This document shows, piece by piece, positions 20,325 to 24,004 of a stretch of 64,000 nucleotides of DNA. Each line of letters opens with the position of its first letter. The first letter of the stretch is position 1. The stretch is taken from NCBI GenBank assembly GCA_030433215.1, contig JAUIMC010000002.1:186001-250000 (forward strand), in the 5' to 3' direction. This DNA is from Alphaproteobacteria bacterium. Its GTDB lineage: Bacteria > Pseudomonadota > Alphaproteobacteria > Caulobacterales > Parvularculaceae. The translations under genes and the position numbers were made by a program. The notes below the pieces were generated by a model, which did no database searches, was not told the origin of the DNA, and was given only the letters and a program-made list of their open reading frames with translations.

Positions 20325-23300
20325 CTAGATCAGCTCCACGTCGGCGACGCCTTCGATGCTTTTAAGGGCGCCGCGCATCGCCGGCGTGCAGGCGGCGACG
20401 CCCGGCAGCGCGATGTCGACTTCGCGCCCCGATTCCGGCAGGCGCATGACGACCACCACGGAGCCGCTTTCGCGCGGGCCCGCCGGACGCACCGAGGCGA
20501 GCCGGCGTTTCAGCCCTTCCAGCGCGTTTGAACTCGTCACCGAGACGCGCAATTGCGAGACGGTCGCCGCCGCCGCTTCATCGAGACGGCGCATGGTCTC
20601 GCAGGTCAGGCGCAGATCGCCGTCGCGGTCTTCGGCCGTGACGCCCACCAGCACCATGGTTCCCGCTTCCATCAGATCGCGCTGGCTGTTCAGCACTTCC
20701 GAGAAGACAGTGATCTCGTAATCGCCGCTCTGGTCGGAAAGCTCCACCCAGGCGAAAGGCTTGCCGCTTTTCGAACGACGCATCCGGACGGCGCGGATCG
20801 AGCCCGCCATTTGCAGGGCGACGCGGCCGACCTTGGCGCGAGTCACGGCTTCGGCATGGGAGACGACATTGAGCCGCTTCAATTCCTTTTCGTAATCGTC
20901 GAGCGGGTGGCCGCTGAAATAAAAGCCGACGGCGGAGCGCTCCTCGTCGAGACGCACTTGCGGCGTCCAGTCCTCGACAATGGGCAGTTTCGGCTTGTCG
21001 AGGGAGGGGGCGGAATCGAGCGCGAAAAGTCCGCCCTGGTCGCTGTTCTGTTCTTCCTGCCAGGCGGCGGAGGTGCGGATCAAAAGTTCGGCGGCGGCGA
21101 AGCTCTGCGCCCGCGACGCGCCGAGACCGTCAAAGGCGCCGGCGCGGGCGAGATTTTCGAGCGAGCGCTTGCCGATCAGTTTGAGGTCGACGCGTTCGGC
21201 GAAATCGATAAGGTCCTTGAAGGGCCCGTTCGCCTCGCGCTCGGCGGCAATGACGGCCATGGCGTTTTCGCCGACATTCTTGACGGCGGAGAGCGCATAG
21301 ACGATGGCGCCGTCTTTCACGGAAAAGTCCGCTTTCGAATGATTGACATGAGGCGGCAGCACATCGACCTCGCTGCGCCGAGCTTCTTTCAGGAAGATCG
21401 CCAGCTTGTCGGTGTTGGCGCGGTCGAGCGACATGGAGGCGGCGAGAAACTCCGCCGTGTAGTTCGCTTTCAGCCATGCCGTCTGATAGGCGATATAGGC
21501 GTAGGCGGCGGCGTGGGACTTGTTGAAGCCGTAGCCGGCGAATTTCTGCACCAGATCGAAGATAGAGGACGCCTTGCCTGCGTCGACGTTCTTTTCCTTT
21601 GCGCCGTCGACGAAACGCTTGCGCTGGAGGTCCATTTCCTCCTTTTTCTTCTTGCCCATGGCCCGGCGCAAGAGGTCCGCCTCGCCGAGAGAATAGCCGG
21701 ACAGGATCTGGGCGATCTGCATCACCTGTTCCTGATAGATGATGACGCCGTAGGTCTCCTTCAGGATATCCTCGAGCATCGGGTGGAGATAATCCGGATC
21801 CTGATCGCCGCGTTTGCAATCGATATAGGTCGGAATGTTCTCCATCGGGCCCGGCCGGTAGAGCGAGACAAGCGCGATGATGTCCTCGAGCGTATCCGGT
21901 TTCATGGCGCGCAGGGTGGAGCGCATGCCCGTGCTTTCCAGCTGGAACACGCCGGTCGCCGCGCCCTCGCCCAGCATCTCGAAGGTCTGTTTGTCGTCGA
22001 GCGGGACCTCGCTCATGTCGAGAGTGACGCCGCGCTCGGCGGCGTAATGAACGGCGCGGTCGATGACCGTCAGCGTCTTCAGCCCCAGAAAGTCGAATTT
22101 GACGAGCCCTGCCGGCTCCACCCATTTCATGTTGAACTGAGTCGCGGGCATGTCAGAGCGCGGGTCGCGGTAGAGCGGCACCAGCTCATCGAGCGGGCGG
22201 TCGCCGATGACGACGCCCGCCGCATGGGTCGAGGCGTGGCGGTAAAGCCCCTCGAGCTTCAGCGCTTTTTCGATGAGCGCTGCGACGCTTTCATCCTCGT
22301 CGCGCTGTTCCTTGAGGCGCGGTTCGGTTTCCAGCGCCTCGGCGAGCGTCACCGGGTTCGCCGGATTGTTCGGCACCAGCTTGCAGATGCGGTCGACCTG
22401 GCCGAAGGGCATGTTGAGGACCCGGCCCACATCGCGCAGGACGGCGCGCGCCTGCAGTTTTCCGAAGGTAATGATCTGCGCCACCCGCTCGCGGCCGTAT
22501 TTCTCCTGCACATAGCGGATAACCTCGTCGCGCCGGTCCTGGCAGAAGTCGATGTCGAAGTCGGGCATGGAAACCCGCTCGGGATTGAGAAACCGCTCGA
22601 AAAGAAGCCCGAAGCGCAACGGGTCGAGATCGGTGATGGTCAGCGCCCAGGCGACGAGAGAGCCGGCGCCGGAACCGCGGCCCGGCCCCACCGGCACGCC
22701 CTCGCGCTTGGCCCATTTAATGAAGTCCGCAACGATCAGAAAGTAGCCCGGAAAGCCCATGCGGTTGATGATGTCGAGCTCGCGCTTGAGGCGGTCCCAG
22801 TAATCGCTTTCGGGGCCCGTGGGCTCCCATGATTTAAGCCGCATCTTGAGGCCTTCGCGGGCCTGGCGTTCGAGCTCGCGCGCCTCGGCGGCGGCGGCCT
22901 CCTCGCCCTCCCCGGCGAAGCGCGGCAGGATCGGGTCGTGAAAGCGCGGGCGGAAGGCGCAGCGCTTAGCCACCTCCAGCGTGTTCTCGATCGCCTCGGG
23001 CAGATCCTCGAACAGCGCCGCCATTTGCTCGGCGGTCTTGAAATAATGATCAGAGGTGACTTTGCGGCGGTCGTCCTGATGCACATACGCGCCCTGGGCG
23101 ATGCAGAGCAGCGCGTCATGGGCCTCGTAATCGTCGGGCGCCGGATAGAAAGGTTCGTTGGCCGCGACCAGCGGCAGATCAAGCTCATAAGCGAGATCGA
23201 TCAGGTCCGGTTCGATGCTTTCCGCGTCGCGGTCGGCGTGGCGCTGAAGCTCAACATAGAGTCTGGCGGGAAACAGCGCCGCCAGCCGTTTAAGCGCGGC

Positions 23301-23771
23301 GCGCGCTTCGGGTTTGCGGTTTTCGCGCAGCAGGCGGTCCACGGGACCGTCATAGCCGCCGGTAAGGCAGATCATGCCGTCGCTATGGCCCTCCAGCCAA
23401 TCGACGCCGGCGCAGGCTTCTTCCTCTGAGCGGGACTCGAGAAAGGCCCTGCTCGTGATCTTGAGGAGGTTTTTATACCCCGCCTCCGACTGGGCGAGGA
23501 AAACGAGGCCGGGCGAGCGGCCGCCGCGCGGCTGTTGCAGGCCGAAATCACCCGGATCGAAAGCCTGCTGGAGGCCGGTGATCGGCTGGATCCCGGCCCC
23601 GGCGAGAGTCGTAGAGGCTTCGAGCGCGCCGAACAGATTGTTGGTGTCGGTGACGGCGACGGCCGGCATCCCCGCCTTGAGGCAGAGATCCTTCACTCGG
23701 CTGATGGTGATCGCCCCTTCCGCGAGCGAATAGGCCGAATGGAGATGAAGGTGAACGAACTGCGCCGTCAC
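20325..23771 (-). CDS. dnaE: DNA polymerase III alpha subunit (DnaE1-type)
   Basis: 1148 residues, full length for replicative DnaE. N-terminal PHP domain (FVHLHLHSAYSLAEGAI), catalytic aspartates in SMPDFDIDFCQDRRDEV near 404 and LVKFDFLGLKTL near 560, fingers region with YQEQVMQIAQILSGYS, helix-hairpin-helix and a C-terminal OB-fold. It is the main chromosomal replicase subunit. The gene begins 43 bases after a 31-codon micropeptide gene on the same strand that carries a LexA-type site in its promoter; no terminator lies between, so part of dnaE transcription may be damage-inducible. Confidence 0.97.
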   Translation of the reverse strand: MTAQFVHLHLHSAYSLAEGAITISRVKDLCLKAGMPAVAVTDTNNLFGALEASTTLAGAGIQPITGLQQAFDPGDFGLQQPRGGRSPGLVFLAQSEAGYKNLLKITSRAFLESRSEEEACAGVDWLEGHSDGMICLTGGYDGPVDRLLRENRKPEARAALKRLAALFPARLYVELQRHADRDAESIEPDLIDLAYELDLPLVAANEPFYPAPDDYEAHDALLCIAQGAYVHQDDRRKVTSDHYFKTAEQMAALFEDLPEAIENTLEVAKRCAFRPRFHDPILPRFAGEGEEAAAAEARELERQAREGLKMRLKSWEPTGPESDYWDRLKRELDIINRMGFPGYFLIVADFIKWAKREGVPVGPGRGSGAGSLVAWALTITDLDPLRFGLLFERFLNPERVSMPDFDIDFCQDRRDEVIRYVQEKYGRERVAQIITFGKLQARAVLRDVGRVLNMPFGQVDRICKLVPNNPANPVTLAEALETEPRLKEQRDEDESVAALIEKALKLEGLYRHASTHAAGVVIGDRPLDELVPLYRDPRSDMPATQFNMKWVEPAGLVKFDFLGLKTLTVIDRAVHYAAERGVTLDMSEVPLDDKQTFEMLGEGAATGVFQLESTGMRSTLRAMKPDTLEDIIALVSLYRPGPMENIPTYIDCKRGDQDPDYLHPMLEDILKETYGVIIYQEQVMQIAQILSGYSLGEADLLRRAMGKKKKEEMDLQRKRFVDGAKEKNVDAGKASSIFDLVQKFAGYGFNKSHAAAYAYIAYQTAWLKANYTAEFLAASMSLDRANTDKLAIFLKEARRSEVDVLPPHVNHSKADFSVKDGAIVYALSAVKNVGENAMAVIAAEREANGPFKDLIDFAERVDLKLIGKRSLENLARAGAFDGLGASRAQSFAAAELLIRTSAAWQEEQNSDQGGLFALDSAPSLDKPKLPIVEDWTPQVRLDEERSAVGFYFSGHPLDDYEKELKRLNVVSHAEAVTRAKVGRVALQMAGSIRAVRMRRSKSGKPFAWVELSDQSGDYEITVFSEVLNSQRDLMEAGTMVLVGVTAEDRDGDLRLTCETMRRLDEAAAATVSQLRVSVTSSNALEGLKRRLASVRPAGPRESGSVVVVMRLPESGREVDIALPGVAACTPAMRGALKSIEGVADVELI

Positions 23772-23814: not shown

Positions 23815-23910
23815 TTACGCTCCGAGCAGCGCTCCCCAGAACTGGGCCGCGCCGATGACCATGATCAGTACTCCGAGTCCGATGACGTCGCGCAAGCTTT
23901 CGTTTTCCAT
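23815..23910 (-). CDS. 31-residue membrane micropeptide, SidA-like, SOS-controlled
   Basis: A 31-codon frame, too short for most gene finders. It starts MENESLRDV and continues as one hydrophobic segment (IGLGVLIMVIGAAQFWGALL) ending in GA, so a single membrane helix fills residues 9-31. GGGAG lies six bases before the ATG, a good ribosome site. Upstream are a GTGACA-N17-TATAGA promoter and a GAAC-N7-GAAC LexA box over the -10 region. Size, topology and control resemble SidA, the 29-residue SOS-induced division inhibitor of Caulobacter that acts on the FtsW/FtsN divisome; I know that protein from its description, not from an alignment. dnaE follows 43 bases later. The coding call rests on RBS, promoter and composition together; function is inferred. 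Confidence 0.75.
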   Translation of the reverse strand: MENESLRDVIGLGVLIMVIGAAQFWGALLGA

Positions 23911-23931
23911 AAGACGCTCCCATGTTCTAAA

Positions 23932-23946
23932 GTTCGTATTTTGTTC
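23932..23946 (-). promoter_or_regulatory. LexA (SOS) box, GTTC-N7-GTTC
   Basis: GTTC at 23932-23935 and 23943-23946 are separated by exactly seven bases (GTATTTT), the direct-repeat LexA site known for alphaproteobacteria. Two further GTTC copies flank it at 23924 and 23961. Read on the minus strand, the box overlaps the end of the -10 hexamer and the likely transcription start of the micropeptide gene, the right place for repression. Confidence 0.8.
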
Positions 23947-23973
23947 TATATTCCCTTTTTGTTCTCATGTCAC
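23945..23973 (-). promoter_or_regulatory. Sigma70-like promoter of the micropeptide gene (and possibly dnaE)
   Basis: On the minus strand, GTGACA (23973-23968) is followed after 17 bases by TATAGA (23950-23945), close to TTGACA/TATAAT with ideal spacing. It points at the 31-codon gene whose ATG is 35 bases downstream of the -10. Confidence 0.65.
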
Positions 23974-23974
23974 G

Positions 23975-24004
23975 TAAAAACCGGCGGGAAAATTCTCCCG
24001 CCGG
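23975..24004 (-). terminator. Terminator of the CatB-like gene
   Basis: A 9-bp perfect stem (CCGGCGGGA at 23981-23989 with TCCCGCCGG at 23996-24004) and, on the minus strand, a following TTTTT. It lies 28 bases after the acetyltransferase stop and insulates it from the SOS promoter just beyond. Confidence 0.8.

Follow-up and report, generated by a model that had tools for sequence, protein, structure and literature searches.

A gene of 31 codons, lying immediately upstream of dnaE in a bacterium of the Parvularculaceae, is likely to encode a divergent positional ortholog of Caulobacter SidA, that is, an SOS-induced peptide acting as a division checkpoint. The components of this reading do not all carry the same weight. 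Control of the gene by LexA is very likely, as is, to a slightly lesser degree, descent from a common SidA-type ancestor; inhibition of division by the peptide, argued by analogy, is probable, and direct contact of the peptide with FtsW, argued in the same way, is a matter on which we would lean to neither side. A functional counterpart of SidA had been proposed in an earlier note made from the letters of this DNA, and the position of the gene in the same slot before dnaE, its LexA-type operators and the conservation of the peptide all argue for that proposal. Coordinates refer to the window, meaning the whole stretch of 64,000 nucleotides analysed here.

Layout of the gene and its tandem operators

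Read 5' to 3' on the minus strand, the locus displays in succession a hairpin, GTGACA, a 17-nucleotide spacer, TATAGA, GGGAG, the 31-codon frame and dnaE (Table 1), the latter lying downstream on the same strand after a gap of 43 nucleotides. Both the frame with its good Shine-Dalgarno sequence and the hydrophobic helix covering most of the peptide were correctly described in the earlier note. The translation reads MENESLRDVIGLGVLIMVIGAAQFWGALLGA, with one hydrophobic stretch at residues 9-27 (best 19-residue Kyte-Doolittle mean 1.99), the membrane helix being called by hydropathy only. The gene thus combines features expected of the SidA type: a same-strand position immediately before dnaE, a length of about 30 residues with one predicted membrane helix, and a LexA-type GAAC-N7-GAAC operator over the promoter. 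Comparison of the peptide with Pfam, NCBIfam and the PDB yielded no useful match, a single PDB match with an E value of 0.042 being dismissed as chance. As for the hairpin, the scan lists it on the plus strand only (1 found for a shuffle mean of 0.5), and a T-run on the minus strand was noticed by eye.

Table 1. Features of the peptide locus, in window coordinates
Feature	Coordinates	Strand	Description and basis
Terminator-like hairpin	23981-24004		Separates the peptide promoter from the hexapeptide-transferase gene upstream; hairpin scan
Promoter	23945-23973	-	GTGACA (23973-23968), 17-nt spacer, TATAGA (23950-23945); position and similar elements in relatives
LexA-type operator 1	23950-23964	-	GAAC-N7-GAAT, inside the promoter spacer; 18 bp from operator 2
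LexA-type operator 2	23932-23946	-	GAAC-N7-GAAC (the GTTC-N7-GTTC of the earlier note); over the -10 element and the presumed start
Shine-Dalgarno-like GGGAG	23917-23921	-	5' of the ATG; read from the letters
SidA-like single-helix membrane peptide gene, 31 codons	23815-23910	-	ATG at 23910, stop TAA at 23815-23817; ORF and comparison
dnaE, replicative DNA polymerase III alpha subunit	20325-23771	-	Pfam PF07733, PF17657, PF02811, PF14579

The promoter proposed earlier, GTGACA-N17-TATAGA, stands as far as its letters and its recurrence are concerned: most of 27 loci bearing the tandem operators have a TTGACA-like or TTGNNA-like element 17 nucleotides 5' of a TATAGA-like one. It was not recovered by a consensus scan, which requires T as the last base of the -10 element and found no sigma-70-type promoter at the peptide gene, so that the promoter call is based on the location of the elements and on their recurrence in relatives. 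A LexA box over the -10 element and the start had also been noted, and it is indeed there; the count has to be amended, as two tandem operators are present and not one, positions 23964 to 23932 reading GAACAAAAAGGGAAT-ATA-GAACAAAATACGAAC, two boxes 3 bases apart. One GTTC-N7-GTTC box was discarded as evidence, for it occurs at chance level both in the window (2 single boxes against a shuffle mean of 2.32) and in the genome (67 against 83 in a reversed control). As to the 33-bp tandem, it is the sole match in the 3.75 Mb genome with at most one mismatch, and the reversed control likewise has 0.

The form of the operator is taken to be that of the LexA box of this organism because GAAC-N7-GAAC is also seen some 150 nucleotides 5' of the start of lexA (TIGR00498, PF01726), between uvrA and ssb, and before a tentative imuA-like gene which is followed by a DNA-polymerase-IV-like (imuB-like) gene. 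The imuA-like match reaches 37.9 bits for an NCBI cut-off of 150, and the names imuA and imuB are therefore tentative. Twenty of the 67 exact boxes of the genome, picked as the likeliest, were inspected, and several of them, located within genes or before unrelated genes, are probably due to chance. Upstream of recA, the 300 nucleotides viewed contain near matches such as GAAC-N7-GTAC but not an exact box. A GAAC-N7-GAAC box further precedes a MraZ-like gene (L098, about 1501-1515, G000:C32:70624), with ftsW 10 kb off on the same contig; the MraZ-like call corresponds to 16.5 bits on the first 60 residues, for a cut-off of 23, and the box could be a chance occurrence. Finally, a LexA-type box separates an imuA/imuB-like pair from a divergent gene (L100, G000:C36:254166-257180), which is followed by one resembling by eye an AbiEi/AbiEii-type abortive infection pair.

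The slot upstream of dnaE in the family and in the order

Conservation of the frame and of the LexA box in relatives, on which the earlier proposal was made to depend, is strong. Of the 62 family genomes searched, 46 gave a match to the peptide (E<=1); within the genus the figure is 24 of 28, and the four genomes without a match (G030, G034, G042, G045) are split into 260 to 830 contigs, with completeness below 90% in three of them. In 29 of the 30 family loci that were fetched, dnaE lies downstream of the peptide, within about 130 nucleotides and with a variable gap; an intact 33-bp tandem operator is found in 27 of the 30, the others being at a contig end (L028), in a shortened form (L037) or without an exact tandem (L038). 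Another twenty dnaE loci from the family, selected for a weak or missing peptide match or, for genome G021, for a peptide away from dnaE, display an upstream membrane ORF in 19 cases, the remaining one being that of G021.

Outside the family, the window-family profile gives weak, scattered matches only (8 genomes, E 0.0067 or worse), so that relatives were sought by position, dnaE being placed in 198 of 200 genomes of the order by a search with its N-terminus and its upstream regions then read. Families and genera are numbered here, f1 being the window family, f3 the Caulobacteraceae and g18 the genus Caulobacter. Named Caulobacter genomes have an ORF of 29 residues between a LexA-type box and dnaE. 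A scan of the Caulobacteraceae, in which the best 80 of 467 dnaE loci were kept, identified under a strict filter a membrane ORF of 29-32 residues in 65 of them, most after LexA-type boxes, and many loci of this family have two boxes 16-18 bp apart. Several of the 15 loci failing the filter also have boxes, and these may hold variants outside it. The slot peptide of Caulobacter sp. BK020 matches the NCBIfam model NF033228 (cell division inhibitor SidA, div_inhib_SidA) with 71.6 bits for a cut-off of 35, and a search with this model leads to the same slot (e.g. G178:C2:141761-141847). The cut-off is passed in 25 of the 200 genomes of the order, all Caulobacteraceae, with genera g11, g17, g20 and g28 reached besides g18; among 14 control genomes, one passes it. 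In both Caulobacter loci checked, the divergent neighbour codes for an inosine-uridine nucleoside hydrolase. Passages of the literature give sidA as CCNA_02004 (PMC10769358) and Caulobacter dnaE as CC1926 (PMC1839093), and the nucleoside hydrolase neighbour fits CCNA_02005 (PMC3667746). Since the Caulobacter gene that separates the LexA-type box from dnaE is SidA by NF033228 and by its neighbours, the window gene can be placed in the same slot as SidA, and the region upstream of dnaE in relatives, to which the earlier note had pointed, bears out the parallel.

Sequence comparison with SidA, also envisaged at the outset, links the two only through an intermediate. The window peptide is not a member of the curated SidA family: it has no match to NF033228 at E<=1, and no genome of its family passes the cut-off in the search of the order. 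Direct profile similarity between f1 and f3 is negligible (hhalign probability 1%), and a third family, f5, with a peptide of 30-31 residues in 23 of 24 loci, is linked to both, at 90.9% with f1 and 94.7% with f3. Against decoys consisting of 130 clean membrane sequences, the f5 model has an AUC of 0.916 for f1 and 0.990 for f3; the direct f1 and f3 models have AUCs of 0.66-0.73, with 0 of 60 and 0 of 44 peptides above the decoy maximum. Position and operator architecture thus make homology of the window peptide with SidA probable, and sequence links the two through the f5 intermediate only, bearing in mind that single-helix peptides can resemble each other by composition. The helix itself is kept across families despite little residue identity. 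The filter retains a peptide in 5 of 14 loci of family f4 and in 0 of 11 of family f2. Four f4 genomes (G092, G159, G115, G171; loci L209, L214, L215, L220) have an imperfect box, with GAAT or GTAC as its second half, some 60-90 nucleotides before the dnaE match and no peptide in between; there, dnaE itself may be an SOS gene.

A proposed path from LexA release to the divisome

In the mechanism that we propose, LexA bound to both operators would cover the spacer and the -10 element and shut the promoter, which would be released when DNA damage triggers LexA cleavage via RecA. The peptide would then insert into the inner membrane, where Arg7, placed before the helix, suggests that the N-terminus is inside, and would hold the late septal synthase complex FtsW/FtsI/FtsN inactive, as a result of which cells would filament until damage is repaired; dnaE may be co-transcribed and boosted along with the peptide gene. 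The precedent is Caulobacter SidA, presented in parts of the literature as an inner-membrane protein of 29 residues, interacting with FtsW and believed to keep FtsW/FtsI/FtsN inactive (PMC4211646), and as one that causes filamentation of lexA mutants (PMC12700426).

The presumed target deserves examination. FtsW is present in the window genome (PF01098), where neighbours resembling murD and murG by eye distinguish it from RodA, the lower PF01098 score serving in other genomes; residue numbers are anchored on the FtsW of Caulobacter sp., which has A31, F145 and A246 as in PMC4211646. The site aligned with A246 is a threonine in all six genomes of the genus considered (L341, L343, L345, L349, L352, L239), compared with an alanine in all ten genomes from other genera of the family. 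Residue 145 is leucine, methionine or valine across these 16 family genomes, with leucine or methionine in the genus, and residue 31 is isoleucine or valine in the genus. In Caulobacter, according to passages of the same source, A246T makes cells short and insensitive to SidA, suppressing both SidA and DidA, F145L is a further SidA suppressor and A31K suppresses SidA overproduction (PMC4211646). These residues speak against a simple transfer of the SidA case: either peptide and target would have drifted together, or the contact would differ. To be sure, A246T leaves SidA binding unweakened in Caulobacter, so that Thr246 need not rule out an action of the peptide on FtsW.

The altered FtsW positions would also suit an SOS-induced micropeptide of the TisB/DinQ type, perturbing or depolarising the membrane and slowing growth or promoting persistence with no binding to the divisome, a possibility with which size, single helix and LexA-type operators agree equally well. 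We hold it to be unlikely. The gene sits in the SidA slot of Caulobacter, with bridging relatives, and specific residues are kept, beyond mere hydrophobicity: in 18 aligned peptides, Asp8, Gly11, Leu12 and Ala31 are invariant, and Leu6, Gly13, Leu15 and Ala21 nearly so.

Still less probable is a leader peptide or upstream ORF, the translation of which would tune dnaE expression, its amino-acid sequence being incidental. The close proximity of dnaE in nearly all family loci goes in that direction, as do the f4 genomes having an imperfect box near dnaE and no peptide, where LexA may also control dnaE. However, it is the protein that selection has preserved. Among the 24 genes of the genus, mean pS is 0.406 and mean pN 0.114, a ratio of 0.28; of 276 pairs, 275 have pN below pS, and variation at third codon positions is fivefold that at second positions: this is a real gene, under purifying selection on its protein product. 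In genome G021, dnaE lies apart from the peptide, which has its tandem operators with it on a different contig (L029 G021:C33; L087 G021:C4), beside a convergent SIS-domain gene, and dnaE has neither an exact box nor the peptide in the 600 nucleotides scanned there; operators therefore go with the peptide. The variable gap to dnaE and the retention of the helix across divergent families similarly argue against a leader.

Distribution beyond the order and comparison with known systems

A search of 290 genomes of the class located the dnaE N-terminus in 285, and 80 upstream regions (L243-L322) were read, from 60 families outside the order, taken from the best-matching listed part of the 285. Ten of the 80 had been added because their family already showed a box, which leaves 70 unselected loci. 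A LexA-type box is seen in 12 of these 70, and 10 of the 12 have a membrane ORF after the box (32-38 residues, within a 22-40 codon window, starting 10-110 nucleotides after it), as against 5 of the 58 loci devoid of a box (Fisher p 4e-7), so that the arrangement of box, peptide and dnaE may be class-wide. All ten added loci have the box and seven have the ORF. The succession of a box, a single-helix ORF of 32-39 residues and dnaE is illustrated by L282, L278, L287, L300 and L307; genomes G433, G327, G458, G227 and G221 have a box and no ORF passing the hydropathy filter. With a peptide model built from Caulobacterales only, 11 of 17 outside peptides outscore every one of the 130 decoys, families f132 (25.3 bits) and f55 (18.2) giving the highest scores; six peptides (four from f34, one from f96 and a second from f55) do not. 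Repeated capture by LexA-dnaE loci of unrelated single-helix peptides converging on one job, suggested by those six and by a direct similarity of the window family to SidA lying within noise, is the faintest of the readings considered here, in view of the joining of the window family and Caulobacteraceae by f5, of the 11 peptides beating all decoys and of an operator architecture common to families.

There is a broader view, which we would accept as readily as doubt: SidA would be the one named part of an ancient checkpoint spread across the alphaproteobacterial class. In it, a micropeptide gene under LexA control would be tied to dnaE, one damage signal both stopping septation and supplying the replicative polymerase; peptide and divisome target would have diverged in step, to the point where curated models still recognise the Caulobacteraceae alone. 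The fixed address (LexA box, 25-39 codons, dnaE) provides a simple finder of candidate checkpoint peptides, reaching those whose shortness and divergence put them beyond sequence search, and it makes a natural series of peptide/FtsW pairs available for contact mapping. In the portions of the literature consulted, among which the original 2011 SidA paper does not figure, SidA is treated as a Caulobacter protein and no description outside this genus was found; fragments of the Caulobacter slot peptide, also sought in the literature, were not found.

Among known systems, SidA of Caulobacter crescentus is the closest, by its position before dnaE, its length (29 residues for 31), its single helix and its upstream LexA-type operators. 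The window peptide differs from it in having no match to the SidA model, in an acidic N-terminus, MENE, where Caulobacter sp. has the basic MVRIAR, in its C-terminal GALLGA and in FtsW residues 31, 145 and 246 of the genus. The YneA and SosA proteins are larger. TisB of Escherichia coli is a tiny SOS-linked peptide with a single helix in the inner membrane, toxic to membrane function and controlled by an antisense RNA. YneA of Bacillus and SosA of Staphylococcus, as portrayed in parts of the literature, are likewise SOS-induced division inhibitors, YneA acting on FtsW (PMC13396833, PMC6851548); they belong to other phyla. DinQ of E. coli is also a tiny SOS-linked inner-membrane peptide with a single helix, described in excerpts as toxic to membrane function and under antisense-RNA control (PMC3567139). 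Finally, DidA of Caulobacter, as far as passages of its description go, is a small single-helix division inhibitor acting on FtsW/I/N and, by contrast, is longer (71 residues), independent of SOS and binds FtsN (PMC4211646).
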